Origin: Selenomonas ruminantium subsp. ruminantium ATCC 12561
GTDB taxonomy: Bacteria; Bacillota; Negativicutes; Selenomonadales; Selenomonadaceae
Assembly (NCBI RefSeq): GCF_000424065.1
Contig: NZ_AUJE01000004.1
Span: 62,001-126,000, forward strand
Direction of reading: 5' to 3'
Length of the DNA stretch: 64,000 nucleotides
Shown: positions 16,572 to 49,005 of the stretch, in pieces
How the letters are laid out: each line of letters opens with the position of its first letter
Numbering within the stretch: the stretch's first letter is position 1
The notes under the pieces: model-generated
What the model was told of the DNA's origin: nothing
Database searches by the model: none
Seen by the model: the letters and a program-made list of their open reading frames with translations, nothing else
Position numbers and translations under genes: made by a program

Positions 16572-16631
16572 ATCACTTCCTCTTTGCCTTTGTTCTAGGC
16601 AAAATCCTCCAATTCTTCATGTTTTCTGATT

Positions 16632-16685: not shown

Positions 16686-16726
16686 GCATAAGATGAATCA
16701 CCACAACAGAAAAGGAGGCGTTTGCC

Positions 16727-18781: not shown

Positions 18782-18800
18782 GCAAGAAGAGGATAATTTC

Positions 18801-19178
18801 ATGAGAGAAAGATCTATACAAATCCGCAAAGCCATGACCTGGCTCCGCCAATGCGATGATGCCGCCTCCCCTCACTTCAATATAAAAACGGGAAGATGGT
18901 CTTTAGGCAAAGGAAAAAAACAAACAGAATCCTATTATTTAGAAAAGATTATACAAGATTATATCGGTATGAAATTAAAATTCCGCTATCAATGGCATGG
19001 AGAAATCATCACACGCCATGTCTTTGCCGAGGTACTGGAAGACATAATCTACCGTTATGATGATTTCAACATTACCGGTTTTGAAGAAGACTACAATATA
19101 CAGCAACGCAAATGGCTGATGTTGATACAGAATAAGATTAAGCTGCTAAAGTCCGGAAAGGTGATTTCTCATGCGTAA
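18801..19178 (+). CDS. Unknown small protein, paralogue of the next gene
   Basis: A 125-residue basic and aromatic protein without membrane segments or known motifs. The ATG at 18801 is preceded by AGAAGAGGA and lies 19 bases after the AAA+ stop codon. Its C-terminal half (FAEVLEDIIYR...FNITGFEEDYNIQQ) aligns with FSDVLQDVLYC...FTVGEFTEQYSQQQ in the following protein. The two are therefore tandem diverged copies of one small family. Its position in the AAA+ operon suggests a partner or adaptor; no function can be read from the sequence. Confidence 0.7.
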   Translation: MRERSIQIRKAMTWLRQCDDAASPHFNIKTGRWSLGKGKKQTESYYLEKIIQDYIGMKLKFRYQWHGEIITRHVFAEVLEDIIYRYDDFNITGFEEDYNIQQRKWLMLIQNKIKLLKSGKVISHA

Positions 19179-19563
19179 AGAACTAAAATACACCTATAGC
19201 AAATGGCCGCCAAAGAAAGGCGTATCCAGTGAAAAAATCCCTCATTTCTGCAAAAAATCAAATGAATGGCGATGCATGGTAAAGGGATTCGATGATAAAA
19301 ATTATGAAGAACGCGGTCCTATCGAATGGGTAATGGCTGAATTTGTACAATATAACGAAACATATGATTACTACATAGAAGAAGATATCTGCCAATGCGA
19401 TTGGCCAAATCATTCGCATACATTTAGCGATGTGCTCCAAGATGTACTATATTGTCCACAACATTTCACGGTGGGAGAATTTACAGAGCAGTATAGCCAA
19501 CAACAGCTGAACCTAATCCATGCTTTGAAAGAAAAATTATTATCCAGTAAAAAAGCGAGATAA
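19171..19563 (+). CDS. Unknown small protein, paralogue of the previous gene
   Basis: A 130-residue acidic and aromatic protein that starts eight bases before the previous gene ends, which points to translational coupling. It contains three cysteine/histidine-bearing stretches (HFCKKSNEWRC, ICQCDWPNHSH, YCPQHF) that could bind a metal, but the spacing matches no finger I know. The C-terminal half is homologous to that of the upstream protein. It is the last gene of the WYL-linked AAA+ operon. GGAAAGGTGAT precedes the ATG. Confidence 0.7.
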   Translation: MRKELKYTYSKWPPKKGVSSEKIPHFCKKSNEWRCMVKGFDDKNYEERGPIEWVMAEFVQYNETYDYYIEEDICQCDWPNHSHTFSDVLQDVLYCPQHFTVGEFTEQYSQQQLNLIHALKEKLLSSKKAR

Positions 19564-19585
19564 AAAATTTACTGATGAATCGCAA

Positions 19586-19624
19586 AATGACCTCCTGACA
19601 GTTCATTTTTGTCAGGAGGTCATT
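19586..19624. terminator. Perfect 14-bp inverted repeat after the AAA+ operon
   Basis: AATGACCTCCTGAC (19586-19599) and GTCAGGAGGTCATT (19611-19624) form a perfect 14-bp stem with an 11-base loop. There is no T-run after it on the plus strand, so it may act as an mRNA-stabilising or weak termination structure. Confidence 0.55.
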
Positions 19625-19693
19625 GCTACAAAACGTACACATATCACAAAATTTTCTCATCAACTGTCACAAGTGAAAAATATATCGATTATC

Positions 19694-20371
19694 TTAAATA
19701 AACCAATATGATCTATCACGTCCAATATCCGGGAAATTTTTTAATATATCTTCCATCCTATACCCTGGATTTTGAAGCATCCATTGCTTTATGGTTTTAA
19801 TCAGCGTGGTAACATTTTCTACTGACCGTAATTTGCCTGCATCAACATCCACTTCCACCACAGCATCATATTTGGTCAAAATGTTATTTTTCCGTCCATG
19901 CCCCAGCAATAATTTCCCCTTAAAATTTATCATGCAATTAAACATAATATTAGGATAGTGCATTATCACTGGACTATCATGTACCTTTTTGGGTTTTACC
20001 CCCATGTAATTCGGGTAAAGCCATTCATTATCGCCTGTATGAATAAATACATCTTTCAAGCAACAGCCAATTTCATTTAATAAAAAGACTTCTGTAAGAC
20101 CTTGCCAATTCCATTGGCTGATTCTATTTGGCTGCAATGGCGCGTTATCTATTGGGAACCAAGTGGTCAAATAGCCTTCCAGTGAATCATTCCGTGGAGT
20201 ATTTCTCCAAACACTCCACGGAACAGTCGCTCTTTTTCCTGTACAGCTATTCTGGTAAAAAATTAAATCGTACGGCTCTCCCTTTAGCAATATCACGGTA
20301 CTAAGCGGAAAATCTGGCAATTTCATTTTTCCGTCAATACGTACATATTCGCCACTATCGATAAAATTCAT
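19694..20371 (-). CDS. Unknown 225-residue protein of the WYL-linked island
   Basis: I do not recognise this protein. It is 225 residues, without a signal peptide or membrane helix, and rich in aromatic residues. The N-terminal part is beta-rich in appearance (EYVRIDGKMKLPDFPLSTVILLKGE), followed by tryptophan-containing segments, and the C-terminus looks helical with a final DRSYWFI. AAGGAGG lies eight bases before the ATG. It is transcribed from the minus-strand promoter of operator copy 2, which suggests co-regulation with the WYL/AAA+ genes. Confidence 0.65.
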   Translation of the reverse strand: MNFIDSGEYVRIDGKMKLPDFPLSTVILLKGEPYDLIFYQNSCTGKRATVPWSVWRNTPRNDSLEGYLTTWFPIDNAPLQPNRISQWNWQGLTEVFLLNEIGCCLKDVFIHTGDNEWLYPNYMGVKPKKVHDSPVIMHYPNIMFNCMINFKGKLLLGHGRKNNILTKYDAVVEVDVDAGKLRSVENVTTLIKTIKQWMLQNPGYRMEDILKNFPDIGRDRSYWFI

Positions 20372-20401
20372 GATTTCAACCTCCTTATCATGTATATCTT
20401 C

Positions 20402-20451
20402 AATATACCATTAACAATGTACAAAAAAATGCACATTGTATTCCCTATAAA
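20402..20451. promoter_or_regulatory. Back-to-back promoters around operator copy 2
   Basis: The core GTACA-A6-TGCAC lies at 20419-20434. Minus-strand TATATT (20402-20407) and plus-strand TATAAA (20446-20451) are each exactly 11 bases from the core, the same geometry as copies 1 and 3. The minus promoter serves the 225-residue protein gene and the plus promoter a 25-codon ORF. Confidence 0.72.
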
Positions 20452-20483
20452 AAAAACTTAATAAGAATTAAGGAGGCAATTCC

Positions 20484-20561
20484 ATGTTCTTATTTAACAC
20501 TTACCATTCCGCACACCAAAAAAATATGATAAATGGGAAAAGGAAAATGAATGAACGATAA
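20484..20561 (+). CDS. 25-residue micro-ORF with its own promoter and terminator
   Basis: A 25-codon ORF beginning MFLFNTYHS and ending GKRKMNER. A perfect AAGGAGG (20470-20476) lies seven bases before the ATG, the TATAAA of operator copy 2 lies 32 bases before it, and a strong terminator stem begins at its stop codon. The whole unit is about 170 bases long. The peptide is basic at its C-terminus and hydrophobic/aromatic at its N-terminus. Its upstream layout resembles that of the AAA+ gene (AAGGAGG, then ATG-TT-TT codons), so it could also be a relic of a duplicated operon start. Confidence 0.5.
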   Translation: MFLFNTYHSAHQKNMINGKRKMNER

Positions 20562-20612
20562 AAATATGCACGCTGAGAGTGTGAGAGTGTAAACTCCAGC
20601 GTGCATATTTTT
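20560..20612. terminator. Bidirectional terminator between micro-ORF and Mrr-like gene
   Basis: AAAAATATGCACGCTG (20560-20575) pairs with CAGCGTGCATATTTTT (20597-20612), a 16-bp stem with A/T tails on both strands. Confidence 0.85.
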
Positions 20613-20628
20613 ATGCTCTATGTTATTT

Positions 20629-21708
20629 TTAGATTACGCAATCGCTAACCCCAACATCAATCAACATTTTTGCAAATTCACCGCCATTTATCAATCGAAT
20701 AGGTAAAGAGATATTTTGAATACTCTGCTGAAGAGCTGCTTGCTTTACTTCTGGCGAATATTCATCACAAGATGATATTATCCATGCAGCGCAGGTATAA
20801 TTATTTTTATCAACGCCATCAATATAATTTTTAATTTGAGTTATCGCCCAGTTGTCGTTCTGAATACCCTCGTAATGCTTAGCCTGAATATAAACCACTA
20901 GATTAAGCCTTGAAAAAGTTGCTATAACGTCAGCATCGCCATCATCAGGCTTGTTGGAAGCATTTTTTGGTGGGATATATACATCGTCTGCTCCCAGTTT
21001 CTTCATGTACCATTCAACGAGTAGTTCAAATTTATCTGGAGTAATTTCTTTTTGGATTAACTCCTTCAATGATTTGCTCAAGTTATCCGATACTGTTGTG
21101 TAAAAATTTAGTGGCTTATTATTTTTTATATCAGCAACAACATTTTTTACATCATCAGCCAAATCATTCAAATTTCCGTTGGTTGCGCGTGATTTCAAGC
21201 GTTTTGTCAGGGCACTTTTAAGGAACTGAGCTCTAGGAGCAAATTCAGTTCCATTACTGTAATGAGTAATGGGCGATACTTTTATAAAGAAGCCTAAGTC
21301 GTATTCTTTACCGTCACTATCAGAAATTCCTGCACCATCAAAAACAACACCTTTACCATTCCAATCCTTGATGCTGTCAATGATGTCACGCGGCAAATTG
21401 TTAATTGATTTTGCCGTTTCCAATACTTCGTATACAGCAAATGTTCCCCACGAAGGAATAACTACCCAATCGCCCACTGCAAATCTAGAAAAATTCCACA
21501 AAAACCAACGATTACGGCTAACTTTGTTATAGATCTCTTGAAAAATTTCATTGTATTTTTCCTCATCAATAGTACCTGCCTTAATCTCCGCAACGACTGT
21601 ACCATACTTCGGCAAGAGATCACCAAATCCTATGGTCATATATCCTTTTTCCAAAAGAGGATAAGACACACGCGCCTCATAGCTGATACGATGAAACCAA
21701 TAATTCAT
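20629..21708 (-). CDS. Mrr-like restriction endonuclease with N-terminal EVE/PUA-like part
   Basis: A 359-residue protein. The C-terminal region (about 223-355) is an Mrr_cat PD-(D/E)XK nuclease: FELLVEWYMKKLGADDVY, then acidic residues at 258-260 (GDADV), then QAK with Lys277, and a final LINGGEFAKML. The N-terminal region (about 1-150, with FAVGDWVVIPSWGTFAVYEVLE) resembles the EVE/PUA-like heads that some Mrr proteins carry, possibly to read modified bases. Mrr enzymes cut foreign or modified DNA. It lies 21 bases after the HD-domain gene, with AAAGGAGAG before the ATG, and so shares the promoter of operator copy 3. Confidence 0.78.
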   Translation of the reverse strand: MNYWFHRISYEARVSYPLLEKGYMTIGFGDLLPKYGTVVAEIKAGTIDEEKYNEIFQEIYNKVSRNRWFLWNFSRFAVGDWVVIPSWGTFAVYEVLETAKSINNLPRDIIDSIKDWNGKGVVFDGAGISDSDGKEYDLGFFIKVSPITHYSNGTEFAPRAQFLKSALTKRLKSRATNGNLNDLADDVKNVVADIKNNKPLNFYTTVSDNLSKSLKELIQKEITPDKFELLVEWYMKKLGADDVYIPPKNASNKPDDGDADVIATFSRLNLVVYIQAKHYEGIQNDNWAITQIKNYIDGVDKNNYTCAAWIISSCDEYSPEVKQAALQQSIQNISLPIRLINGGEFAKMLIDVGVSDCVI

Positions 21709-21729
21709 ATCACATCTCTCCTTTCAAAA

Positions 21730-22299
21730 TCATTCTTCCACCACAAAGCAACTCCAACTATCAGCATACTGAAGTAGCAATGTCAATTTTTCCTCACGAG
21801 TTGCCACGCTTCTGTTATCTTCCACATACTGCCCATCATGGTAGGCAATCGCCTGCACTTCTTCCTCTGTGAGCGGGAAACGTGGCGTAATGAGATAGAG
21901 GCTTCTAATCGGCACGCTAAGATAGGTCAGTTCATTATTAAAACGATAAGGCGGATTGGCTGCATAACCATAAGCTTTTTGCTTCGGTGTCGGTTCATTT
22001 TTGATGTACTGCGGATTCCCCGGCATCCCTGCTTTGCCCAAATCATGCAGGAGTGCCACGATAACGCAGCTCTCGTCACTTATTTCCGGAGTCAGCGTGC
22101 TTTTCAGTTTCAGCATGGTTTCGGCGACATTTACACTATGTTCTAAAAGTCCCTGTTCATGGCACAGATGAAACCTTGTCGAAGCTGACGCTGTCAAATA
22201 TTCTGTCTCATTTTCGATATACGACATCAGCTCCTGAAACTCCTCCTTCCTGTCCATAACTTTATCCTTCAATTTCTGATAGCGCTTCATCAAGTCCAT
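21730..22299 (-). CDS. HD-domain phosphohydrolase-like protein
   Basis: A 189-residue HD-superfamily protein. The metal-binding residues are visible: His54 in LLEHS, the HD pair at 85-86 in LLHDLGK, and a later YHD motif near residue 153. Similar small HD proteins are common in phages and plasmids; substrates range from nucleotides to oligonucleotides and cannot be told from the sequence. It is the first gene after the minus-strand promoter of operator copy 3 and precedes the Mrr-like gene. GGAGG lies ten bases before the ATG. Confidence 0.78.
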   Translation of the reverse strand: MDLMKRYQKLKDKVMDRKEEFQELMSYIENETEYLTASASTRFHLCHEQGLLEHSVNVAETMLKLKSTLTPEISDESCVIVALLHDLGKAGMPGNPQYIKNEPTPKQKAYGYAANPPYRFNNELTYLSVPIRSLYLITPRFPLTEEEVQAIAYHDGQYVEDNRSVATREEKLTLLLQYADSWSCFVVEE

Positions 22300-22349
22300 A
22301 AGTAATGCTCCTCCATTTTATCAATCATGGTTTTATTACTGTTGGTACA

Positions 22350-22399
22350 AGCATAGCAAAACATATGTACAAAAAAATGCACATTGTCCATGATATGCT
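22350..22399. promoter_or_regulatory. Back-to-back promoters around operator copy 3
   Basis: The core GTACA-A6-TGCAC lies at 22367-22382. TATGCT occurs on the minus strand (22350-22355) and on the plus strand (22394-22399), each exactly 11 bases from the core. The minus promoter serves the HD and Mrr-like genes. The plus promoter points into the iteron origin and the rep gene. Confidence 0.7.
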
Positions 22400-22400
22400 T

Positions 22401-22472
22401 ATTGCAGAATTTTAACGGACAAAATTTTTTTCCTATTGCAGAGAAAAAACGCCATCATTGCAGAAAAATAAC
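22401..22472 (+). repeat. Three direct iterons of a plasmid-type origin
   Basis: Three copies related to ATTGCAGAAAAATAACGG start at 22401, 22435 and 22457. They lie on the plus strand, directly after the -10 box of operator copy 3. Confidence 0.75.
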
Positions 22473-22573
22473 ATCCACAGGTGCAGTATGCTTGATTTTA
22501 TTGCTGTCACGCACCTTTTCCCCAGCAAATCAACAAGTTATCCACAGCTTTATCCACATATCTCCATCATTAA

Positions 22574-22675
22574 CGGTTATTTTTCTGCAATCGCCGTCAA
22601 AAATCTGCAATCCCACCGTTATTATTCCGCAATATCTCCGTTAAAAATCTGCAAAGGCGTTATTTTCCTGCAAAT
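22574..22675 (-). repeat. Five phased iterons on the opposite strand
   Basis: Five inverted copies of the same iteron lie at about 22574, 22595, 22617, 22639 and 22658. The spacing of 19-22 bases is close to two helical turns, as expected for Rep-binding iterons. Confidence 0.75.
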
Positions 22676-22896
22676 AAAGGCCCTATTTTCGCCGTGCGGC
22701 GTGGTCTGCCATCAGCCGCCTATATATTGACTTAACTTTTATGAAATCCAATAAGGCAAATAAACGCCCCCTAAGAATAAATCATACGCGCAAGGATTAG
22801 GCCTGTTTTATCCTTTGACCGCGCTTAATTGCAGATATTTAACGTGCTTGCTTACGCCGCCAAATTTTGCTAATGTGTTTAACACGAGGTGAAAAC

Positions 22897-24168
22897 ATGA
22901 CCACTCCCCAACAGTTAGAACTGCCCTTTTTCTCGTCCATACAATACGCTGCGGCCTATCCGCTCAGAGCTACCTCCAAGCTGGAGAACAATGTCTACTC
23001 CGCAGTCCGCTATACCATTCAGCAGATGGTCTACTCCGGCGCAGAGTTTGAGGTGGACAAGAACATCCATATTCCCATTGATGTCCGCAGTGAAGCCAAG
23101 CTGCGCAATATTGACGATTGGTTCACGCTCTACCGCAATATCGAACGGGCGATGAACAAGGTTTCCAAAAATGCTTACAAGGAGCGCATTATCCTTGATA
23201 ATGCGGAAGACAAGGAAAAATACATTGAAGCCGCCATTGTCACCACTACGCATTACAATGCGGAAAGCGGCGTTATCACCGTGACCGTCAATGCCGATTT
23301 CGTCAAATACTATGTCGCCATGCTGCTTTCCCGCCCGGAAATTCAGGTGCCGCGGGAATTTGATGCCTTTGCCCGTTCCAGCTACACCTATCCGTTTTCC
23401 CGCTGGCTTTTTGGTCAGATTGCCATATTGCAGAAAAATAACGAAAATCCTCCCTATAAAATCTCGATTTCCCTTGAAGATTTGATGGCCTTTGTGCCAC
23501 CGTCCTCTGCCTCTATCCGGCCATCTTCCTACAGCCGGGATATCATCTCCTCCGTCATTGAAGATATGAATGAAAACGAGTTCTGTCCTGTGACGATAGT
23601 AAATCCCCATGATATCGTGTCGCGCCGCACAGGACGCCGTATTGCCGAATTTACTTTTGAAGTGGAAATGCGCCCGTTGGGCGCCAATAAATATCCCTTG
23701 CTTACAGCTATATCAGGCAGCGGCCTGCTTAACGAAAGCAGTGTGCCGTCCCGCGATTATCTGCACAAACGCCTGCAGAAGCTCGGCTTTGCCGAATCCT
23801 CATGGAGCAAGCTGGACAACCAGCCTGCCGTTTGCTGGAAAGTCATTCTCTACACGCTGGTCAAAGTCAAGGAACACGCCCATGATGCCACGCCATTCAA
23901 TCCCGGTGCCTACATTCAGGGCATGTTGAAACGCCGCTCGGAACAGGCATTGTTGAAGGACAAAAACATAAAGAGCCTTGCACTGGATGTCCTGCGCAAA
24001 GCTCCTGAATACGTTGATGAAGTTATCATTGCGACAGCCGGTGTACGCACTGCCGCTGACCAATTTCTCGCTATGGCTATTCAAAACCGTCCTGTACCGA
24101 AACAAACTGCCAATAACAATCCATTTTTGCGGGAATATCTGGCTAAACACAAGGATGTAACAAATTGA
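22897..24168 (+). CDS. Plasmid-type replication initiator (Rep_3-like)
   Basis: A 423-residue soluble protein resembling iteron-binding initiators with two winged-helix domains: about 35-180 (containing AVRYTIQQM and the YTYPFSRWLFGQIA helix further on) and about 185-310 (ISLEDLMAFV and RDIISSVIEDMNE). It should bind the iterons upstream to open the origin. The ATG at 22897 follows GAGGTG by five bases; the TTG at 22867 is a less likely start. One full iteron sequence lies inside the gene at 23427-23443. A strong terminator follows. No partition, mobilisation or integrase gene is visible in the window. Confidence 0.7.
   Translation: MTTPQQLELPFFSSIQYAAAYPLRATSKLENNVYSAVRYTIQQMVYSGAEFEVDKNIHIPIDVRSEAKLRNIDDWFTLYRNIERAMNKVSKNAYKERIILDNAEDKEKYIEAAIVTTTHYNAESGVITVTVNADFVKYYVAMLLSRPEIQVPREFDAFARSSYTYPFSRWLFGQIAILQKNNENPPYKISISLEDLMAFVPPSSASIRPSSYSRDIISSVIEDMNENEFCPVTIVNPHDIVSRRTGRRIAEFTFEVEMRPLGANKYPLLTAISGSGLLNESSVPSRDYLHKRLQKLGFAESSWSKLDNQPAVCWKVILYTLVKVKEHAHDATPFNPGAYIQGMLKRRSEQALLKDKNIKSLALDVLRKAPEYVDEVIIATAGVRTAADQFLAMAIQNRPVPKQTANNNPFLREYLAKHKDVTN
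23427..23443 (+). repeat. Iteron copy inside the rep coding sequence
   Basis: ATTGCAGAAAAATAACG occurs within the rep gene, matching the iteron consensus over 17 bases, in the orientation of the first three iterons. Confidence 0.65.
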
Positions 24169-35535: not shown

Positions 35536-37431
35536 ATGCGTATCACTGACCTGCTCAAGAGCGATAGCATCGTTCTAGGCGCCTCCCCTGCGGACAAAGC
35601 GGCCGCAATCAATCAGCTGGCTGACCTTATGGAAGCCGGCGGCAACCTGTCCGACAAAGAACAGTACAAAAAAGATGTATTCGCCCGCGAAGCATCCGGC
35701 ACCACTGGCCTCGGCGACGGTATCGCCACTCCCCATGCCAAGAGTGCTGGTGTAAAGGCTGCCGGCCTTGCCGCTATGACGGTTCCTGCCGGTATGGATT
35801 TTGAATCCATGGACGGCCTGCCGAGCCGCCTGTTCTTCATGATTGCTGCTCCGGACTCTGCCAATGACGACCATCTGGCTATCCTGTCCAAGCTGGCTAC
35901 CATGATTATGGACCCGGACTTCAAGGAAGCCCTGATTGCCGCTAAGAGCAAAGATGAATTCCTGAAGCTCATCGATGCCAAAGAAGATGGCAAATTCGTA
36001 GCTCCGGCAGCAGCAGAAGCAGAAGAAGCTGCTCCGAAAGCCGACCACATTCAGGTACTGGCTGTTACGGCCTGCCCCACGGGTATTGCCCACACCTTCA
36101 TGGCTGCCGAAAGCCTCGAACAGCATGCCAAGAAGCGCGGCATCACCATCAAGGTTGAAACCAACGGCTCCGGCGGTGCCAAGAACGTACTGACCGCTGA
36201 AGAAATCGCCAAAGCTGACGCCATCATCGTCGCTGCTGATAAGAACGTCGCTATGGCCCGTTTCGATGGCAAGCCGACCATCATCACCAAAGTTGCTGAC
36301 GGCATCAACAAGGCAGACGAACTTTTAGACCGTGCCCTGTCCGGCAACGCGCCGATTTACCATGCTTCCGGTTCTAATGCCGAAGAATCCGCTGCTGATG
36401 TATCCGGCGAAAGCCTCGGCCGTCAGATTTACAAGCACCTCATGAACGGTGTCAGCCACATGCTGCCCTTCGTTGTTGGCGGTGGTATCCTGATTGCCAT
36501 GGCCTTCCTGTTCGATGATTACTCCATCGACCCGAGCAAATTCGGTTCCAATACGCCGCTGGCTAAGTTCTTCATGGATATCGGCGGTGCATCCTTCGGC
36601 TTCATGCTGCCGATTCTCGCCGGCTTTATCGCCATGTCCATCGCTGACCGTCCGGGCCTTGCTGTAGGTTTCGTCGGCGGTGCGCTGGCTGGCACTACGG
36701 GTTCCGGCTTCCTCGGCGCTCTCGTAGCTGGTTTCGTTGCTGGTTACACGGTAAACTTCCTGAAGAAAGCCTTCTCCTGCCTGCCGGAATCTCTGGACGG
36801 CATCAAGCCCGTTCTGCTCTATCCGTTCTTCGGTATTCTGATCATCGGCTTCATCAGCATGTTCATCATTGCTCCGCCGGTTGGTGCAATCAACACCTGG
36901 CTCGTTGACACGCTGAAGAACATGGACCCCAACGCCCGCATTATGCTGGGTATCGTCATGGGCGGCATGATGGCTATCGACATGGGCGGCCCCATCAACA
37001 AGGCAGCTTATGTAACGGGTACTGGCCTGCTCGCTTCCGGCGAATACCATGTAATGGCCGCTGTTATGGCTGGCGGTATGGTTCCGCCTCTGGCTATCGC
37101 CCTTTGCACGACCTTCTTCAAGAACCGCTTCACGGAAAGCGAACGCAAAGCTGGTATCACCAACTATGTCATGGGTATGTCCTTCATCACGGAAGGTGCT
37201 ATTCCGTTCGCCGCTGGTGACCCCCTGCGCGTGATTCCGTCCGTATTCATCGGTTCCGCTACGGCAGGTGCCCTCTCCATGGCCTTTGACTGCACCCTGC
37301 GTGCTCCTCATGGCGGTATCTTCGTCGTACCGACCATCGGCAATGCCGGTATGTACATCGCCGCTATCGTTATCGGTGCTGTAGTCGGCTGCGCTGTACT
37401 GTCCGTACTGAAAAAGCCCATCAAGGACTAA
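35536..37431 (+). CDS. fruA: PTS fructose-specific EIIABC
   Basis: A 631-residue three-domain permease in the order A-B-C. EIIA (about 1-150) has its phospho-histidine in GIATPHAKS. EIIB (about 172-270) has its phospho-cysteine in VTACPTGIAHT. EIIC (about 290-625) is a polytopic fructose permease with GGGILIAMAFLF. A linker rich in Ala and Glu joins A and B. It imports fructose as fructose-1-phosphate for FruK. AAAGGAGAG precedes the ATG. Confidence 0.95.
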   Translation: MRITDLLKSDSIVLGASPADKAAAINQLADLMEAGGNLSDKEQYKKDVFAREASGTTGLGDGIATPHAKSAGVKAAGLAAMTVPAGMDFESMDGLPSRLFFMIAAPDSANDDHLAILSKLATMIMDPDFKEALIAAKSKDEFLKLIDAKEDGKFVAPAAAEAEEAAPKADHIQVLAVTACPTGIAHTFMAAESLEQHAKKRGITIKVETNGSGGAKNVLTAEEIAKADAIIVAADKNVAMARFDGKPTIITKVADGINKADELLDRALSGNAPIYHASGSNAEESAADVSGESLGRQIYKHLMNGVSHMLPFVVGGGILIAMAFLFDDYSIDPSKFGSNTPLAKFFMDIGGASFGFMLPILAGFIAMSIADRPGLAVGFVGGALAGTTGSGFLGALVAGFVAGYTVNFLKKAFSCLPESLDGIKPVLLYPFFGILIIGFISMFIIAPPVGAINTWLVDTLKNMDPNARIMLGIVMGGMMAIDMGGPINKAAYVTGTGLLASGEYHVMAAVMAGGMVPPLAIALCTTFFKNRFTESERKAGITNYVMGMSFITEGAIPFAAGDPLRVIPSVFIGSATAGALSMAFDCTLRAPHGGIFVVPTIGNAGMYIAAIVIGAVVGCAVLSVLKKPIKD

Positions 37432-37453
37432 TACTAACGAGTAAAACATAGAT

Positions 37454-37482
37454 AAAGCCTTCCCCTCTGGGGAAGGCTTTAT
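37454..37482. terminator. Bidirectional terminator after fruA
   Basis: AAAGCCTTCCCC pairs with GGGGAAGGCTTT around a TCT loop. Confidence 0.88.
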
Positions 37483-37491
37483 TCTAAATTT

Positions 37492-37498
37492 AAGGAGG
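37492..37498 (+). promoter_or_regulatory. Stranded Shine-Dalgarno at the left end of the IS607 element
   Basis: A perfect AAGGAGG is followed by no start codon at a usable distance. Joining it to the sequence after the GG at 39699-39700 gives AAGGAGGAGTTATG, a proper start for the permease gene at 39705. Confidence 0.5.
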
Positions 37499-37515
37499 CT
37501 TTTAACAGATAAAAT

Positions 37516-37536
37516 AAAGTTATAAATAGTTATAAA
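37516..37536 (+). repeat. Left-end recombinase binding repeats of the IS607 element
   Basis: Two direct copies of AGTTATAAA, the first extended to AAAGTTATAAAT. The inverse of this longer form recurs near the right end at 39669-39680. Confidence 0.55.
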
Positions 37537-37589
37537 ATATTCTTGATTATATTACAACGTATTGATACAATAGTATTGAGGTGATGAAC

Positions 37590-38246
37590 TTGGAATACTA
37601 TACTATCAACAAGTTTGCTAAAATCGTCGGAGTCACCCCGCAAACCCTGAGAAATTGGGACAGGAGCGGAAAACTCCATCCTCATCACACTTCGTCAAAC
37701 GGCTACAGATATTACTCAGAAGACCAATTAAATGCTGTGACGGGCATTCAAACGGCTCCTAAAAAAGTTATCGGCTATTGCAGAGTATCAAGTCCCAAGC
37801 AAAAAGACGACCTTGAGCGACAGATAGAAAATCTGAGAACATATCTATACGCACAGGGGCAGCCCTTTGAAATAATCATTGACGTTGGTTCTGGAATCAA
37901 TTACAAGAAGAAAGGTTTACAAGACCTTATTCGCAGGATTGAGTCTAATCAGGCCGAGAAGGTAGTTATCCTTTATAAGGACAGGCTTTTACGCTTTGGT
38001 TTTGAGCTTATCGAAACTATTGCCGCTATACATGGCTGCAAGATAGAAATAGTCGATACTACACAAAAAAGCGAGCAACAAGAACTTGTCGAGGACTTGG
38101 TGCAAATAATTACAGTGTTTAGCTGTAAACTCCAAGGAAAGTGGGCACATAAGGCGAAGAAGATGATTCAGGAATTAGTTGGTGGTGATTCAGATGATAA
38201 AGTCGGTCAGAATACGGCTGTTGCCGAACAACAAACAGAAAGCTAA
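37590..38246 (+). CDS. tnpA: IS607-family serine recombinase
   Basis: A protein of about 218 residues. An N-terminal MerR-type helix-turn-helix (INKFAKIVGVTPQTLRNWDRSGKL) is followed by a resolvase catalytic domain, with the nucleophile serine in YCRVSSPKQKDDLERQ and the later conserved basic stretch YKDRLLRFGFE. This layout is specific to IS607 TnpA, which integrates via a serine recombinase. The start is uncertain: TTG at 37590 lies six bases after GAGGTG, while ATG at 37584 abuts it. The tnpB gene overlaps its end by 53 bases. Confidence 0.93.
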   Translation: MEYYTINKFAKIVGVTPQTLRNWDRSGKLHPHHTSSNGYRYYSEDQLNAVTGIQTAPKKVIGYCRVSSPKQKDDLERQIENLRTYLYAQGQPFEIIIDVGSGINYKKKGLQDLIRRIESNQAEKVVILYKDRLLRFGFELIETIAAIHGCKIEIVDTTQKSEQQELVEDLVQIITVFSCKLQGKWAHKAKKMIQELVGGDSDDKVGQNTAVAEQQTES

Positions 38247-39492
38247 ACTGTTTCAGTTTGCGGGAGCTTCGAGGTTTGCCTATAACTGGGCTTTAGATAA
38301 GCAGATGAATAATTTTTGGGAAGGCAGAAAACTTCAGAGTGATTATGACCTCCGCAAAGAATTCACTGTTCTGCGAAATTCAGGAGAAAAACCTTGGTTG
38401 CTGGACATATCCAACAATGTCACTAAGCAGGCTATTAAGGACTTGTGTATAGCATATAAGAACTTCTTTCGTAAACAGAAACAGCCTGGATATATCAAGT
38501 ATAGCCCTAAAAAATTGGCTTATCTTGCTCGTATTGACAAGAAACCAACAGCCTATGATATGAACGGGCACCCAAAATTCAGAAGCAAAAAGAATGGCGA
38601 CTTTCGTTTCTATCAGGACAATGTAAAGATTCAGTTCACCAATACACATGTCAAACTGGAGAGTATTGCGGGCAGCAAGAAAAAGAACCGTCAACGGCTC
38701 AACTGGATAAGGCTTGCCGAAAAGGGCAGAATTCCTGTTGGTATGAAATACACCCAACCGCGAATAACTTTTGACGGTGAAAACTGGTGGCTGGGAATTG
38801 GCTTTGTAGTCAAGCATAAGTTAAAGCCAATGCGAGGGCTAAAATTTGTCCGCAAACAGCCGAAACGTCCCTACACCGAGGGAGTTGGTATTGATTTAGG
38901 TATCAAGGACTTAGCGATAATCTCGGACTCCACAGTAGTCAAAAATATCAATAAGTCCCATACAATAAAAAAACTCAAAAAGAAACGGCGCAGGTTGCAG
39001 CGTCAGGTATCTCGTAAATACCAGATGAATAAGAAAGGAGATAGTTACTGCAAAACAAGCAACCTTATAAAAAGTGAAAAACAACTTTTACGAATAAATC
39101 ACAGGCTGGCAAACGTCAGAGTCAATCATGTACATCAGGCGACGAGAACGATTATAAACCGAAAGCCAAGGTTTATATGCCTTGAAGACCTGAATGTGCA
39201 GGGGATGATGAAGAATAAGCACCTGTCTGAGAAGTTGCAGGAACAGAATCTTTATGAATTCCGCAGACAGATTGAATACAAGGCGCATTGGGCAAAAATT
39301 CCCGTGGTTATTGCTGACCGCTGGTACCCTAGTTCTAAGACTTGTATTGAATGCGGATATGTAAATAAAGACCTGAAGCTGTCAGACAGAACTTATGTCT
39401 GCCCGCATTGTGGTAATGTGATAGACCGTGATTTCCAGGCGGCGTTGAATCTTGAACGCTATGGAGAAGTGGAACTATCTAAATCTGCATAA
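38194..39492 (+). CDS. tnpB: TnpB RNA-guided endonuclease of the IS607 element
   Basis: A 432-residue TnpB. The RuvC-like catalytic acids are visible in GIDLGIKDLAI, ICLEDLNVQGM and DRDFQAALNLER, and a four-cysteine zinc ribbon (CIEC...CPHC) lies between the second and third. All look intact, so the protein could be active. TnpB proteins cut DNA guided by an RNA made from the right end of the element. I chose the ATG at 38194, five bases after GGTGGTGA. Confidence 0.93.
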   Translation: MIKSVRIRLLPNNKQKAKLFQFAGASRFAYNWALDKQMNNFWEGRKLQSDYDLRKEFTVLRNSGEKPWLLDISNNVTKQAIKDLCIAYKNFFRKQKQPGYIKYSPKKLAYLARIDKKPTAYDMNGHPKFRSKKNGDFRFYQDNVKIQFTNTHVKLESIAGSKKKNRQRLNWIRLAEKGRIPVGMKYTQPRITFDGENWWLGIGFVVKHKLKPMRGLKFVRKQPKRPYTEGVGIDLGIKDLAIISDSTVVKNINKSHTIKKLKKKRRRLQRQVSRKYQMNKKGDSYCKTSNLIKSEKQLLRINHRLANVRVNHVHQATRTIINRKPRFICLEDLNVQGMMKNKHLSEKLQEQNLYEFRRQIEYKAHWAKIPVVIADRWYPSSKTCIECGYVNKDLKLSDRTYVCPHCGNVIDRDFQAALNLERYGEVELSKSA

Positions 39493-39700
39493 AGACACCA
39501 ACAAGTCAATGCAGATATGTACCGATTCGTTAGTCGGGAATTTAAGCCTCTGGAGCATTACATCAAACGTGATTAGCCTGTTCTTCGGGACGGCAAAAGC
39601 GGATGCGAAATACCTCTTTCGAGGAAAGAATGAGGAATGAAACGTAAAAGTTAGCTTTTCTTATGAAAATTTATAACTTTTTGTAAGTTTTCAGTAACGG
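39493..39700 (+). ncRNA. Candidate omega RNA at the right end of the IS607 element
   Basis: The roughly 200 bases after tnpB contain several short hairpins (for example CCTC-TTTC-GAGG near 39612) and no ORF. TnpB guide RNAs are made from this position, overlapping the 3' end of tnpB, with the guide taken from the flanking DNA. If so, the present guide would be the start of the permease gene at 39705. This rests on position and known biology, not on a conserved motif I can verify. Confidence 0.4.
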
Positions 39701-39704
39701 AGTT

Positions 39705-41012
39705 ATGCTAGACCGCCTGTTTAAGCTGCGTGACCGGAATACTTCGGTACGCACAGAAATTTTTGCCGGGCTGACCACGTTCATTGCCATGGCTTATATT
39801 GTTTTTGTCATTCCCCACATGCTCACGGATGCTGGAGTTCCCCAGGAAGCATCCATCGCCGCTACCATTCTGATTACCGCCGTTTCCACCCTCTTTATGG
39901 GTGTACTGGTCAATTACCCAGTGGCTCTTGCCCCCGGACTTGGTCTTGCGGCCTTCTTTTCCTATTACGTCTGCGGCAGCCTGCACCTGCACTGGACAGT
40001 AGCCCTCGGCGCCGTCTTCTTTTCGGGTATCGTATTTTTGCTTTTAACCTGTGGCGGCATCATGAAAGCCATCATTCATGCCGTACCAGATACGCTCAAA
40101 GCGGCCATCACAGTCGGTATCGGCCTGTTTATCGCCTTTATCGGACTCAAAAATGCCGGTGTCCTGCAATCTGACCCGTCAACCTTTGTCGCGCTCGGTG
40201 ATGTTACCCAACCGGCGCCTGTCTTTGCGATGTTTACGCTAGCGCTCACGATTATTCTCATGGTGCGTGGCGTGCAGGGAGCTATCCTCATCAGTATTGG
40301 CGTGACCACGCTGCTCTCCATGGCCCTGGGGTATTCTCCCATTCCCCACGGCATCAACGATATTATCAGCTTCGATATTCCCTCGGTGAGCGGTTCCTTC
40401 GTCCAGTTCGATATTGCAGGTGCTTGGAATTATGGGATAATCTCCATCATCTTCACCTTCACCATGGTGGAACTGTTCGATAATATCGGCACGCTTATCA
40501 GTCTTACCCGCCGGGCCAATATGGTGCAGGAGGACGGAGAAATTCCCGGCCTCAACAAGGCGCTGACCATGAACGCCTTCGCTACAATTGGCAGTGCGTT
40601 TGTAGGAACCTCCACCGTAACCACCTATCTGGAAAGTGCTACGGGTATTGAAGCCGGCGGCCGCACGGGTCTTACCGCTGTTGTCACGGCACTGGGCTTC
40701 CTCTCCCTGCTGCTCTTTGCTCCACTGATTGCCTTGGTGCCCAGCTATGCGACAGCCTCTGCGCTGATTCTCATCGGTGCTTTGATGATTTCTTCCGTCA
40801 AAGACATTGATTTTTCCGACCTCACCGATGGTGTCCCGGCCTTTCTGACCATCATTATGATGCCACTTACCTACAGCATCGCCAGCGGCTTTGCCTTTGG
40901 CTTTATCAGCTATGTTGTGCTGAAGGTATGTACAGGAAGGTATAAAGAAGTCAGCTGGGTTATGGGCGTAATCAGCCTGGCATTCTTAATTAACCTGATT
41001 ATGCGAGCCTAA
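39705..41012 (+). CDS. NCS2-family purine-type permease (AzgA-like)
   Basis: A 435-residue membrane transporter of the nucleobase-cation symporter 2 group. The AzgA-like start (LFKLRDRNTSVRTEIFAGLTTFIAMAYIVFVIP) and the signature MVELFDNIGTLISL are clear. Likely substrates are adenine, guanine or hypoxanthine. The ribosome binding site GGAG is only two bases before the ATG, apparently because the IS607 element inserted there. The coding region looks complete; expression may be altered or driven by the element. Confidence 0.9.
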   Translation: MLDRLFKLRDRNTSVRTEIFAGLTTFIAMAYIVFVIPHMLTDAGVPQEASIAATILITAVSTLFMGVLVNYPVALAPGLGLAAFFSYYVCGSLHLHWTVALGAVFFSGIVFLLLTCGGIMKAIIHAVPDTLKAAITVGIGLFIAFIGLKNAGVLQSDPSTFVALGDVTQPAPVFAMFTLALTIILMVRGVQGAILISIGVTTLLSMALGYSPIPHGINDIISFDIPSVSGSFVQFDIAGAWNYGIISIIFTFTMVELFDNIGTLISLTRRANMVQEDGEIPGLNKALTMNAFATIGSAFVGTSTVTTYLESATGIEAGGRTGLTAVVTALGFLSLLLFAPLIALVPSYATASALILIGALMISSVKDIDFSDLTDGVPAFLTIIMMPLTYSIASGFAFGFISYVVLKVCTGRYKEVSWVMGVISLAFLINLIMRA

Positions 41013-42058: not shown

Positions 42059-42739
42059 TCAAACCACATCTACCCGGATAACCCCGTCAATCTGTCGCAC
42101 AGCATCGACGATGATGATGCTCTTGATACTTTGCTTGTTGAAAATCTCCAAATCAATATACATGCTTTTTTCGCCGTTATCGTCCACTTCATCCTCATCA
42201 GCCTTGACCTTAACGCCTCGCACCCGCAGCTGCAAATCTTCCAGACAACGGCTTATTCGCATAAGCTGCCCTGGCCTGTCCACCGTATGTATATTGAGCG
42301 AGAGATTTTTTTCATGGTCAACCCAGTCATCCAAACGGGAAAGACTTCCCAAGGTTACAAAAACCAACGCCGTACTGATCAGTGCCCCTGCATAAAAACC
42401 GGCACCGACCGCCAAACCAACACCAGCTACCACCCAAAGACAGGCTGCAGTAGTAAGACCGGTAACCGACAGCCCTTCCTTCATAATCGCACCAGCTCCC
42501 AAGAAACCGATGCCGCTGACCACCTGAGCCGCCAGCCTTGCCGGGTCGGCATTCGTCTTACCTTCTACTTCCTGATACATTTCCACAGACATGACCATAA
42601 TCAGACAGGAACCCAGACACACCAACACATTTGTACGTAATCCCGCCGATTTTCTGCGGGATTGACGTTCATAGCCAATTATCCCGCCTAAGACACAGGA
42701 GAGAACCAGCCTTAGGAATAGTTCCCACTCCGACAGCAT
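42059..42739 (-). CDS. MgtC/SapB-family membrane protein
   Basis: A 226-residue protein. The N-terminal MgtC domain (about 8-145) has RLVLSCVLGGIIGYERQSR and RLAAQVVSGIGFLGAGAI, the family signatures, with four or five helices. The C-terminal part (about 148-226) resembles an ACT-like regulatory domain (NIHTVDRPGQLMRISRCLEDL). MgtC proteins are linked to magnesium limitation and acid tolerance. The intergenic region before its start holds a cluster of DnaA boxes. Confidence 0.9.
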   Translation of the reverse strand: MLSEWELFLRLVLSCVLGGIIGYERQSRRKSAGLRTNVLVCLGSCLIMVMSVEMYQEVEGKTNADPARLAAQVVSGIGFLGAGAIMKEGLSVTGLTTAACLWVVAGVGLAVGAGFYAGALISTALVFVTLGSLSRLDDWVDHEKNLSLNIHTVDRPGQLMRISRCLEDLQLRVRGVKVKADEDEVDDNGEKSMYIDLEIFNKQSIKSIIIVDAVRQIDGVIRVDVV

Positions 42740-42849
42740 GATTCCTCACCTCTTTTCCAGATATAACCATGCTTTATTCTTGTATAAATTCGCGCCGCAA
42801 AGCAAAAATCCTGCATGTCTATGGGAAACTCTGTATACAAAGTAACAAT

Positions 42850-43126
42850 TTATCCACATATTAATCCACAACTGTGGATAAGTATGCACATAACATTTAT
42901 GATTTTCTGTTTCCTACTATAATATATAAGCGTCATGTGTATATTGTTTATTTTATTCTAACCACAATCTGTGGATAATGTGGATAAATCCGTGGATAAC
43001 CCCATATATTCAGCTTGACAAAGACTGTTCAGCTATATTTTGTGCATTTATCCCCATAATTTCTCCAAAATCCTGTGGATAAATCTTAAACTGTGTATAA
43101 CGTTACAAAATATCACTTTTTCCACA
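42850..43126. other. DnaA-box cluster, candidate oriC or DnaA-titration site
   Basis: This 370-base intergenic interval has no ORF. Five perfect DnaA boxes (TTATCCACA or its complement) lie at 42850, 42873, 42970, 42979 and 43074. One-mismatch copies lie at 42862, 42991, 43048, 43092 and 43118. Between the groups (42895-42965) is a very AT-rich stretch suited to unwinding. The density is far above chance. No dnaA or dnaN gene is nearby. Confidence 0.65.
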
Positions 43127-43577
43127 GGGAAAATGGATTTTTTATTAAGTTTGCATTGTAGTAGCGGACATCACCAGAAACTTCCTGTCCCAGCCAAACC
43201 GGACGGGAAAAGTCCGCGCCTTCGTCCGGAAGTTCCACTTCTGCCACCACCAGCCCTTGATTTTCACCAGCAAACACATCAATTTCCCAGAGACGATTTC
43301 CATGCTGTTCCAAATAACGCACCTTAGACAGAATCGGCTGTTCAGCCAGTTTCAATAGTTCTTCTGCATCAGCAAGAGGGATTTCGTATTCAAACTCCGC
43401 CCGGCTGATGCCTTGATTCTTCCCCTTGATGGTCAGATAGCCTTTATCGCCCTTTATCCGCACTCTGACCGTCCGCTCGGGCACAGTGGACAAATACCCT
43501 TGGGCTATTGTTATCCCTGCTGCCTGCGGCTGCCAATTATCCTTCACCAAAAATTTACGTTCAATTTCTTTCGCCAT
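43113..43577 (-). CDS. CYTH-domain protein (triphosphatase/adenylate cyclase class IV-like)
   Basis: A 154-residue CYTH domain with the defining N-terminal motif EIERKFLV and alternating charged residues through the tunnel fold (VRVRIKGDKGYLTIKGK, EFEYEIP, DVFAGENQGLVVAEVEL). Bacterial members are mostly inorganic triphosphatases; some are adenylate cyclases. I chose the ATG at 43577, nine bases after AAAGGAG. Its end reaches the edge of the DnaA-box cluster. Confidence 0.9.
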   Translation of the reverse strand: MAKEIERKFLVKDNWQPQAAGITIAQGYLSTVPERTVRVRIKGDKGYLTIKGKNQGISRAEFEYEIPLADAEELLKLAEQPILSKVRYLEQHGNRLWEIDVFAGENQGLVVAEVELPDEGADFSRPVWLGQEVSGDVRYYNANLIKNPFSLWKK

Positions 43578-43642
43578 ATCCATCAACTCCTTTATATCTT
43601 ATATTGTAACATTTTTTTCTTATTTCCTCGCTTTTTTCAGAT

Positions 43643-43671
43643 TTGTTTGTTATACTTAATTAGTTTATAAT
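43643..43671 (+). promoter_or_regulatory. Promoter of the LCP-family gene
   Basis: TTGTTT and a perfect TATAAT are separated by 17 bases. Confidence 0.6.
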
Positions 43672-43730
43672 AAATATATGCTACAATAGTTGATATTACA
43701 TAAAATTTTTGAAGAAATGAGGGTATGATT

Positions 43731-45020
43731 TTGCAAGATTCCAATATTCCGCCCCGCAAGACCAATAAAAAACGCCGTATTTGGCTTTGGGTACTGATGC
43801 TGTTCATCTTTTTGGGTGCAGCTCTAGGCGGCGCTTATTTTGCCAGCAATAGTCTTACGGAAAAGCCTGTGGAAAAAAAGCAAAGTGAGGAACTGATTAC
43901 CGCTAAAGATAAAGCCACGATTATGATTATGGGGGTAGATGAGCGCGAAGATGATGTAGGCCGCAGTGACACCCTGATGATTGCCTCCATCGACCCCAAG
44001 ACCAATCAGGCCTCCCTACTGTCTGTGCCCCGCGATACCCGCGTAAAAATCAAGGGACACGGTTTTGACAAGGTAAATGCCGCCTATGCCTATGGCAAGG
44101 AAAGACTTTCTCAGGAAACGGTAGAAAATCTTTTGGGTGTCAACGTAGACCACTACATTATCATCAATACCAAATCCTTCAAGAAAATTATCGATGCCGT
44201 TGGCGGCATTGATATCGATGTTCCCAAACGCATGCACTATGAAGACCCCTGGGACGACGATGGCGGCCTTATTATTGATTTCCATCCCGGAATGCAGCAT
44301 ATGGACGGCGCAAAAGCCGTAACCTATGTACGCTACCGCGATGAAGAAGGAGACCTGGGCCGTATCCGCCGCCAGCAGGATTTTGTGCGGGCTTTCATGG
44401 AAAAACTCGTATCTCCGACAATCATTCCCAAGCTGCCTGCTGTAATCAAGGAAGTTATGGACTCCATTGAAACCGACCTTTCTGTCCGTCAGCTTTTAGA
44501 ATTCGCCGGAACATTGAAAGAGTCCAAGCACAATGGCCTGAAAACCGATATGGTTCCCGGCAAGCCGCTCTATATCGAGGGTATAAGTTATTGGATTCCC
44601 GATTTGAATAAGCTGCGTCTGACCGTAGCCGATACGCTGGGCGTATCCCTGAGCGGCAAGTACAAGACCAAGATGGAAGCGGATATCCGCGAATATGAAA
44701 ACAGTATTCCTGCCGGTGCCAGTGAAGTTCCAGCCAGCGATACCTCCATCGGCCGTGCCAAAGCTTCCGACAGCAGCAGAAACCGCCGCAGAGAAGAAAC
44801 TGTGGACAAAGAGAAACGCAGCAGCGAAGACAAAAAGGTTGAACGCACAGAACGTTCCCGCAGTGAAGACCGTGAGGAACGTTCCGAACGAAGCAGCCGT
44901 GAGGAAATTGACCGTCCCGCTCGTTCCCAGACTACTCCCACTACGGACAACAGCAGCCCCCGCAGCGACGATTCTACGGCCCCGCCAACCCCTAGTGCAG
45001 GGATAAGCAAGTCCCGCTGA
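43731..45020 (+). CDS. LytR-CpsA-Psr family protein with low-complexity tail
   Basis: A protein of about 429 residues with an N-terminal transmembrane helix (about 20-40) and an LCP domain (about 60-290: IMIMGVDERE, SDTLMIASID, SLLSVPRDTRVKI, VRYRDEEGDLGRIRRQQDF). LCP proteins transfer glycopolymers from lipid carriers to the cell wall. The last 110 residues are a hydrophilic tail rich in Ser, Arg and Glu, probably disordered. The start is uncertain: TTG at 43731 lies seven bases after GAGGG, and the ATG at 43725 directly follows it. Confidence 0.9.
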   Translation: MQDSNIPPRKTNKKRRIWLWVLMLFIFLGAALGGAYFASNSLTEKPVEKKQSEELITAKDKATIMIMGVDEREDDVGRSDTLMIASIDPKTNQASLLSVPRDTRVKIKGHGFDKVNAAYAYGKERLSQETVENLLGVNVDHYIIINTKSFKKIIDAVGGIDIDVPKRMHYEDPWDDDGGLIIDFHPGMQHMDGAKAVTYVRYRDEEGDLGRIRRQQDFVRAFMEKLVSPTIIPKLPAVIKEVMDSIETDLSVRQLLEFAGTLKESKHNGLKTDMVPGKPLYIEGISYWIPDLNKLRLTVADTLGVSLSGKYKTKMEADIREYENSIPAGASEVPASDTSIGRAKASDSSRNRRREETVDKEKRSSEDKKVERTERSRSEDREERSERSSREEIDRPARSQTTPTTDNSSPRSDDSTAPPTPSAGISKSR

Positions 45021-46575: not shown

Positions 46576-49005
46576 TTAGTCTTCCTTCTGCACCAAGGTT
46601 GCCATAGATGCTACCTTGTCATTTTCCGCCGTAGTCATGAGCTTGACGCCCTGCGTGTTACGGCTGATGACGGAGATATCGGATACGTTGGTGCGGATGA
46701 CGATGCCATCGGTGGTAATGAGCATGAGTTCATGTTCCGGACGAACAACCTTGATGCCTACTACCTGGCCGGTTTTTTCCGTGACCTTCATGTTGATAAG
46801 GCCCTTACCGCCACGAGTCTGCGCACGATATTCATCGGTGCTGGTGCGCTTGCCATAGCCGCATTCCGTAACGGTCAGGACTTCGGCATTGCGCACGAGG
46901 ATATCCATGCCAACGACTTCATCACCATCAGACAGGGTAATGCCCTTGACCCCACGCGCCATGCGGCCCATAGAGCGGACATCATCTTCAGAGAAGGCAA
47001 TCGCCTTACCGAGCTTCGTACCCAGCATCAGATAGCTTTCGCCATCGGTGAATTTAACGCCCATGAGGTCGTCATCATCATCGAGGTTGATGGCGTTAAG
47101 GCCGTTCTTGCGCAGGTTGCTGAACTCAGACAGGGACGTCTTCTTCACGATACCCTTGCGAGTTGCCATAAAGAGGTATCTATCCGGGTCAAAGCCCTTG
47201 ACCTGAATAACCGCCGTAATCTTCTCGTCCTGGTCAAGCTGCAGGAGATTGATGATGGCCGTTCCCTTGGCCGTGCGGCTGGATTCGGCAATCTCGTAAG
47301 CTTTCAGGCTGTATACGCGGCCGCGGGTCGTGAAGAACAGGATGGTATGATGGGTTGTGGTAATCAGGAGATTTTCCACAAAATCCGTTTCCTTCGTGCC
47401 CATGCCCTTGATGCCCTTGCCACCGCGGTTCTGACGACGGTAGGTATCGAGCGGCATACGCTTGATGTAGTTGTTATGGGTGAGGGTAATCACCACATCT
47501 TCCTCGGCGATGAGGTCTTCCACATCGATTTCCGAAGTGTCAATGGTAAGTTTCGTGCGGCGGTCATCACCGTACTTCTCCTTCACAGCCGTGAGTTCTT
47601 CCTTGATGATATTCAGGATTTTCTGATTGTCGGCAAGGATGGCCTTGAATTCTTCGATAGCCTTCAAGGTTTCCTGATATTCTTCCTCAATCTTTTCCCG
47701 TTCCAGACCGGTCAGGCGCTGGAGACGGAGGTCGAGGATGGCCTGTGCCTGTTTATCGGAAAGCTTGAAGCCTGTCATCAAGGCTTCCTTGGCGATATCC
47801 GCCGTGCGGCTCTCGCGGATGGTCGTAATAACGGCATCCAGATGGTCGAGGGCAATCGTCAAACCTTCCAGGATATGGGCGCGGGCTTCGGCCTTCTTCA
47901 GTTCGTACTGCGTACGGCGGGTGATGACCTCTTCCTGATGCTTGATGTAGTAATGGAGCACCTGCTTGAGGTTCAATACCTGCGGTTTTCCATCAACCAA
48001 AGCCAACATAATCACGCCAAAGCTGTCCTGCAGCTGCGTGTGCTTAAAGAGCTGGTTCAGGATAACATTGGCGTTGGCATCGCGGCGCAGGTCGATAACG
48101 ATGTGCATACCATTACGGTCCGATTCATCCCGCAAGTCCGTAATGCCCTCAATCTGCTTATCACGCACCAGCTGGGCAATCTTTTCGATAAGACGCGCCT
48201 TGTTGACCTGATACGGCAGTTCCGTAACGACGATACGCGGCTTGCCGTTGCTCATGGTTTCAATATGGGCATTGGCCCGCATCTTGATGATGCCGCGCCC
48301 CGTCATATAGGCCTGCTTGATACCCTCTTTGCCCAGGATAAGACCTGCCGTCGGGAAATCCGGCCCCTTGATGGCCGTCATGAGTTCCTCAATGGTCGTA
48401 TCCGGATTATCAATGAGCATCAGCGTGCCATCAATGACTTCCCGCATATTGTGCGGCGGGATATTGGTCGCCATACCTACGGCGATACCAGAAGTACCAT
48501 TGACCAAGAGCTGCGGGAACTTGGACGGCAATACTGCCGGTTCCTTCAAGGACTCATCATAGTTGGGAACGAAATCTACCGTTTCCTTGTCAATGTCCTG
48601 CAGCATAAGCTCGGAAATCTTGGACATACGGACTTCCGTATAACGCATAGCAGCGGCCGGGTCACCATCTACGGAACCGAAGTTGCCGTGACCGTCAGCC
48701 AGCATATAGCGCATGGAGAAATCCTGCGCCATGCGGACGATGGCATCATAAACGGACGTATCACCATGCGGATGATATTTACCCAAAACTTCGCCGACGA
48801 TACGCGCCGACTTCTTGTAGGGCTTGCCGGACCCCATACCTGCTTCCTGCATAGCATAGAGTATACGGCGGTGTACCGGCTTCAAACCATCCCGGACATC
48901 CGGCAGGGCACGAGCCACGATAACGCTCATCGCATAGTCGATGTAGCAGTTCTTCATCTCGTGTTCCAGATTAACGGGGACGATTTTTCCCTGTTCAAAC
49001 TCCAC
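46576..49005 (-). CDS. gyrA: DNA gyrase subunit A
   Basis: An 809-residue GyrA. The N-terminal breakage-reunion domain has the catalytic tyrosine in the [11 protein letters not shown] motif and the quinolone-region sequence [25 protein letters not shown]. The C-terminal beta-pinwheel includes the GyrA-box-like [12 protein letters not shown]. It forms the negatively supercoiling enzyme with GyrB, which is not in this window. The quinolone-region positions read His-Gly-Asp-Thr-Ser and Asp-Ala, as in many Firmicutes. Confidence 0.97.

Follow-up and report, generated by a model that had tools for sequence, protein, structure and literature searches.

The question raised by this locus is whether a dense cluster of DnaA boxes, lying apart from dnaA, marks the chromosome origin or a site that controls DnaA from outside it. 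The window, by which we mean the whole stretch of 64,000 nucleotides analysed here (G000:C4:62001-126000), belongs to the 3.39-Mb genome of the rumen bacterium Selenomonas ruminantium (G000) and carries gyrA at 46576-49005, 3.45 kb from the cluster, in agreement with the 3.5 kb given in an earlier note on this DNA. The same note had described five perfect and five one-mismatch boxes around a very AT-rich core in an ORF-free interval, and had offered oriC and a DnaA-titration locus as readings. The dense cluster stands, with counts slightly above those claimed: 12 boxes with at most one mismatch lie within the 277 bases 42850-43126, six perfect and six with one mismatch. The AT-rich core corresponds to 42891-42969 in the middle of the cluster, at 24% GC. 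The interval 42740-43112 (373 bases, 33% GC) is indeed free of genes and holds 11 boxes, six of them perfect; the box at 43118-43126, however, falls inside the 3' end of a CYTH-domain gene, and a mechanical ORF of 95 residues (43040-43327, plus strand) overlaps the cluster. Shuffling of this interval (2000 dinucleotide shuffles) gave a mean of 0.99 boxes (maximum 6) and 0.056 perfect boxes (maximum 2). The cluster is the densest on contig C4 (165,577 bases) in both 500-base and 300-base windows. An RNA gene at the cluster was considered and rejected, as 42500-43800 has no Rfam match up to E=1.

The boxes, and the conserved element that most of them form, are as follows.

42850-43126, no strand: DnaA-box cluster, 12 boxes with at most one mismatch each
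42850 (plus), 42873, 42970, 42979, 43074 and 43092 (minus): starts of the perfect DnaA boxes TTATNCACA, the last as TTATACACA
42862, 42882, 43048 and 43118 (plus), 42936 and 42991 (minus): starts of the one-mismatch boxes
42847-43083 (C4:104847-105083), minus: conserved element, positions 4-240 of the 241 of model R1, E 4.0e-51, this sequence being one of the 20 that built the model
43074-43082, minus: box A, TTATCCACA, mean pairwise identity 0.96 in 20 sequences
42991-42999, minus: box B1, TTATCCACG, from the alignment of 20
42979-42987, minus: box B2, TTATCCACA, 12 bases from B1, invariant in all 20 sequences
42970-42978, minus: box B3, TTATCCACA, directly abutting B2
42905-42928, minus: conserved AT-rich motif at the centre, TATATATTATAGTAGGAAA, flanked by the B and C triplets, with the hexamer TATAAT on the plus strand
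42873-42881, minus: box C1, TTATCCACA, invariant in all 20 sequences
42862-42870, plus: box C2, TAATCCACA in this genome, opposed to C1 at an offset of 11
42850-42858, plus: box C3, TTATCCACA, on the strand of C2 at an offset of 12, identical in 20 of 20
43092-43100, minus: additional perfect box, TTATACACA, which some of the loci lack

Comparison with relatives revealed the same box layout downstream of their CYTH genes. A CYTH match was found in 54 genomes, and 20 of the 30 CYTH loci fetched were aligned (alignment A1); the others (G066, G046, G045, G024, G039, G064, G047, G022, G027 and G068) lack the full layout beside CYTH and were left out, although G045 and G068 carry the element elsewhere. 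Seven boxes are common to the 20 aligned loci and keep their order and orientation: the single box A, the triplet B1-B2-B3 with offsets of 12 and 9, and the triplet C1-C2-C3 with offsets of 11 and 12, in which one box is opposed to the other two. The mean pairwise identity is 0.96 for the seven boxes compared with 0.54 for the other columns, and the AT-rich motif is also largely kept. Of 31 distinct cores found with a pattern, 22 have B and C starting 105-107 bases apart and the other nine 100-119. Helical phasing of this distance, suggested by the 22 cores at 105-107 together with four at 116-119, was dropped, since the distances of 100 and 104, and that of 113 seen in three cores, do not clearly match whole turns.

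The earlier note had found no dnaA in the window, which holds; yet the gene lies only 9.9 kb past the right end, on the same contig. This single full-length dnaA of the genome is located at C4:135891-137267, 30.8 kb to the right of the cluster, and the only other DnaA-like match resembles DnaI/DnaC-type ATPases. The minimum of the cumulative GC skew sits at dnaA in three members of the genus, namely at 134,546 in G000, at 526,339 in G010 (dnaA 523,620-525,002) and at 2,940 in G017 (dnaA 299-1,687), and 8-kb skew bins keep one sign throughout the cluster region in all three. In the dnaA-dnaN spacer, two abutting boxes are followed by a GC-rich gap and CTA repeats, which is the published unwinding module, described in excerpts of PMC8287927 as a box beside DnaA-trios. 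A script recovered a box with CTACTA in 19 of 21 such spacers, L057 being added by alignment and L065 carrying a variant. None of 20 clusters has a box (at most two mismatches) within 16 bases of CTACTA-type trios, though CTACTA itself occurs in 11 of them; the central motif was likewise rejected as a DnaA-trio for want of an adjacent DnaA box.

Because dnaA is 30.8 kb off, the skew minimum lies at dnaA and the unwinding module resides in the dnaA-dnaN spacer, the cluster is not oriC; oriC is at dnaA, outside the window. Thus the origin branch of the earlier proposal fails on two of the checks it had suggested, cumulative GC skew and the location of dnaA, as well as on the module, which in its CTACTA-type form is missing from all 20 clusters. 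In boxes with at most one mismatch, the cluster outnumbers both oriC halves in G000 (12 versus 9 and 8), G010 (10 versus 9 and 9) and G017 (10 versus 9 and 6); in perfect boxes only, it ties in G010 (4 versus 4 and 3). This is a warning for origin finders, as the densest box cluster near dnaA is here not the origin. As a separate observation, every parS-like site (at most two mismatches) in the stretches read in G000, G010 and G017 has dnaA between it and the cluster.

Model R1 was searched against 120 genomes. At E<=1e-10 it matched 48 of 73 genomes of the family Selenomonadaceae (this one included), 20 of 22 of the genus and none of 47 outside the family; 20 of the 48 matched genomes built the model, leaving 28 as independent matches. 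The best match outside the family (1.5e-8, G100) lies just upstream of dnaA. The search used stricter filters, which lose weak matches, and left 25 family genomes without a match at this threshold. Among them are the two genus members G015 and G020; on the side in question, the contig with dnaA breaks off 8.2 kb from the gene in G015 and 20.7 kb from it in G020. An exact degenerate pattern run over a collection of 84,980 species found 12 stretches: eight in Selenomonas ruminantium and one each in Mitsuokella sp., Selenomonadaceae, an uncultured Selenomonadales and an uncultured Veillonellaceae. In three genomes from other families, only the oriC halves rose above the cluster threshold used within about 60 kb on either side of dnaA. 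No published description of the element was found among the open-licence PMC papers listed for DnaA and Selenomonas or Negativicutes.

Among the 48 genomes, cluster and dnaA share a contig in 25, with a gap of 3.1-42.1 kb in 24 of them (median of those 24, 29.4 kb); in 22 of the 25 the cluster is on the dnaN side, as inferred from the strand of dnaA. Only G031 gives a bound among the other 23, the remaining 22 being uninformative, either because no dnaA was found or because the contig ends no more than 29 kb from the cluster. The element is therefore near dnaA in 24 of 26 informative genomes, the exceptions being G039, with a partial match only, 419 kb from dnaA, and G031. The latter has the element complete, at E 3.2e-43 and with 10 boxes, together with gyrA, LCP and CYTH on a 1.48-Mb contig; as the element is 299 kb from the nearer contig end and dnaA is on another contig, the two are at least 299 kb apart. 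The separation of dnaA from the gyrA-LCP-CYTH-cluster block on contigs C4 and C6 of G031 is due either to rearrangement around the origin or to the assembly. In G071, CYTH and dnaA are 88 kb apart, and in G050 the gap is roughly 85 kb, taking the genome as circular and its size as rounded; neither genome has an element match at E<=1e-10. G071, G050 and G039 could hint at decay of the element far from oriC; G031 argues against this.

With modest confidence we take the conserved 270-base stretch for a control locus of Selenomonadaceae that would bind DnaA outside the origin, though usually close to oriC, and most likely limits re-initiation. The titration branch of the earlier proposal appears the better one, favoured by the box density, the nearness to dnaA in 24 of 26 informative genomes and a conservation that does not depend on any single neighbouring gene. 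We propose that DnaA would bind here and be titrated or inactivated, with an effect on the timing of initiation. A fixed complex would form, with DnaA on all seven conserved boxes: box A, the B triplet and, beyond the AT-rich spacer, the C triplet. As most genomes have the array 3-42 kb from oriC, it would be copied soon after initiation, and the doubled sites would then draw DnaA from oriC, so that less free DnaA is left there, early re-initiation is blocked and the next round is delayed.

The element would best be read as a functional counterpart of E. coli datA or of the DnaA-box clusters of Bacillus. The B. subtilis clusters, which the title of Okumura et al. 2012 reportedly calls oriC-proximal, are likewise non-origin groups of DnaA boxes outside oriC; the Selenomonadaceae element may differ in keeping one seven-box layout across genera of a family. 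Non-origin DnaA control sites are known in other bacteria, and the fixed layout of this one is its own. Joint deletion of six B. subtilis clusters leads to early initiation, according to excerpts of PMC5295017 and PMC13220808; the former states that no individual cluster has been shown to play a significant part by itself, a strong effect being seen only on removal of six. YabA, a DnaA regulator of B. subtilis, was not found in the S. ruminantium genome. The site datA, in the account given in parts of PMC5742627, is duplicated early because it is near oriC, which leaves less DnaA for oriC; it is also a compact non-coding DnaA-box cluster near oriC, with groups of boxes parted by a spacer. datA needs IHF (same excerpts), for which it has a site between its box groups; the two HU/IHF-family proteins found in the S. 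ruminantium genome are best matched by HU models and score below every HU and IHF cut-off. In E. coli, datA lies about 470 kb from oriC (PMC5742627, in part), whereas the gap here, in 24 of the 26 informative genomes, is 3-42 kb. A DnaA-box cluster of Streptomyces coelicolor is named in the same excerpts, together with the B. subtilis clusters, as an analogue of datA.

The near-rigid spacing and the conserved non-box motif exceed the needs of a passive sink, and the near-fixed spacing leaves room for a more active role, in which the nucleotide state of DnaA is changed. It is a tentative and rather improbable extension that the element might be a lineage-specific, IHF-independent seven-box DnaA machine, usually near oriC, which switches the nucleotide state of DnaA in the manner of datA, a site that promotes hydrolysis of the ATP carried by DnaA, or of DARS, instead of merely titrating it. 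If true, such a switch without a recognised IHF would bear on B. subtilis, where the existence of regulators of DnaA ATP/ADP interconversion is unknown according to excerpts of a recent review (PMC13220808). Knowledge of the sites that control DnaA away from oriC comes chiefly from E. coli and, in less detail, from B. subtilis; a conserved, sharply bounded element that can be captured by a model in a different lineage is a target for the question of titration versus DnaA state.

The genes around the element bear on a different reading, in which the cluster would be a promoter region under DnaA control, serving the neighbouring MgtC-family gene or LytR-CpsA-Psr (LCP) family gene. Three genes flank it in the window.

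42059-42739, minus: MgtC-family gene, beside the element, not found there in 14 of 39 other loci
43113-43586, minus: CYTH-domain gene, its 3' end abutting the element; 12 of the 39 other loci have no CYTH gene adjacent
43725-45020, plus: LCP family gene, adjoining the element in nine genomes without CYTH there

The usual block order is gyrA, LCP, CYTH, cluster, MgtC, cytidine deaminase (CDD) and PTS. Of the 47 other genomes that R1 matched at E<=1e-10, 39 had their neighbour genes examined (G043, G022, G067, G032, G047, G027, G039 and G025 were left out), and none of CYTH, MgtC, LCP and cytidine deaminase was found beside the cluster in all 39 loci. As the neighbours vary while the element stays, it is not tied to one gene; its nearness to dnaA and oriC is partly inherited with the syntenic block.

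DnaA is a known transcription factor, as excerpts of PMC8203912 describe, and the promoter reading can point to MgtC beside the cluster in 25 of the 39 other loci, to the nine genomes without CYTH where the cluster occupies the divergent LCP-MgtC spacer, and to the TATAAT that the conserved central motif holds on one strand. The element is nevertheless kept where MgtC is missing beside it (14 of 39) and where neither MgtC nor LCP is there (6 of 39, among them G046, whose contig ends about 0.2 kb past CYTH). A promoter consensus scan of 42700-43800 gave seven sites, each agreeing with the consensus at 9 of 12 positions, where shuffling leads one to expect 3.4; conservation of promoters across relatives was judged by eye. 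Weakened by this turnover of genes, with no tested neighbour constant in the 39 loci, a promoter function is unlikely to explain the element.

Resemblance of the C triplet to the E. coli DARS cores suggests an activating site, where the triplet would assemble ADP-DnaA, promote the release of ADP and raise active DnaA. We read the DARS1 and DARS2 cores at what we take to be their places in the K-12 genome; their offsets are 14 and 12, with the first box opposed. In DARS1 and DARS2 as in the element, a three-box core has its first box opposed to the other two (here C1 against C2 and C3), and the second spacing is 12 in both. The first spacing is 11 here, not the 14 of both E. coli cores, and the element further differs in its extra B triplet and box A and in being usually close to oriC, while the E. 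coli DARS sites are far from it, consistent with their presumed map places. The three-box core of DARS is described in excerpts of PMC5742627. Since the 11/12 triplet also occurs upstream of dnaA in these genomes, it is not special to the cluster, and a DARS-like activator is quite unlikely.

A second or displaced chromosome origin would account for the dense boxes round an AT-rich core and for modules that resemble both oriC halves, and the origin of G031 is not placed by these data, its skew being weak with no clear flip at dnaA. Such an origin is very unlikely given the skew minima at dnaA in G000, G010 and G017 and the box-trio modules that mark the dnaA-dnaN spacers and not the clusters. 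A relic of an integrated plasmid or phage origin has nothing in its favour beyond the box density and is rejected as next to negligible, since 42840-43130 matches none of 72,556 plasmid records and none of 50,697 phage records (distant mode, E<=0.01) and the element is kept in a syntenic block across genera.

The preferred DnaA-binding control locus has to be seen among other DnaA sites of these chromosomes. Perfect boxes number 234 versus 75 for the reversed pattern in G000, and 153 versus 33 in G010; with 234 perfect boxes in G000, the cluster accounts for only a small part of the sites. With other clusters present and this genome-wide excess, the element may be the strongest of several DnaA-binding clusters. 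A second group in G010 has six boxes, five of them perfect, and lies 76 kb from dnaA on the other side (L176, G010:C1:447256-447432); its layout is common to three genus members (L176 in G010, L177 in G013 and L179 in G003).

Several other features were observed in passing. Tandem pairs of perfect boxes with a 12-base period occur in the window at 22538-22558 and elsewhere at C4:150207-150227, C11:81568, C17:71074 and C59:3032. The pair at 22538 precedes by about 300 bases an ORF of 433 residues (22867-24168), for which a plasmid-type Rep, guessed from reading the ORF, was rejected as it has no Pfam match. The low-GC island at 15000-23000 (0.36-0.43 in 2-kb windows), with genes for an Mrr-type restriction endonuclease, an AAA+ ATPase and a regulator with a WYL domain, is possibly a defence island. 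In a mobile element at 37581-39492, the gene of a MerR-HTH serine resolvase overlaps one of OrfB/TnpB type that has a Cas12f1-like TNB domain, and the GC skew (2-kb windows) turns positive at 37001-40000, where this element sits.
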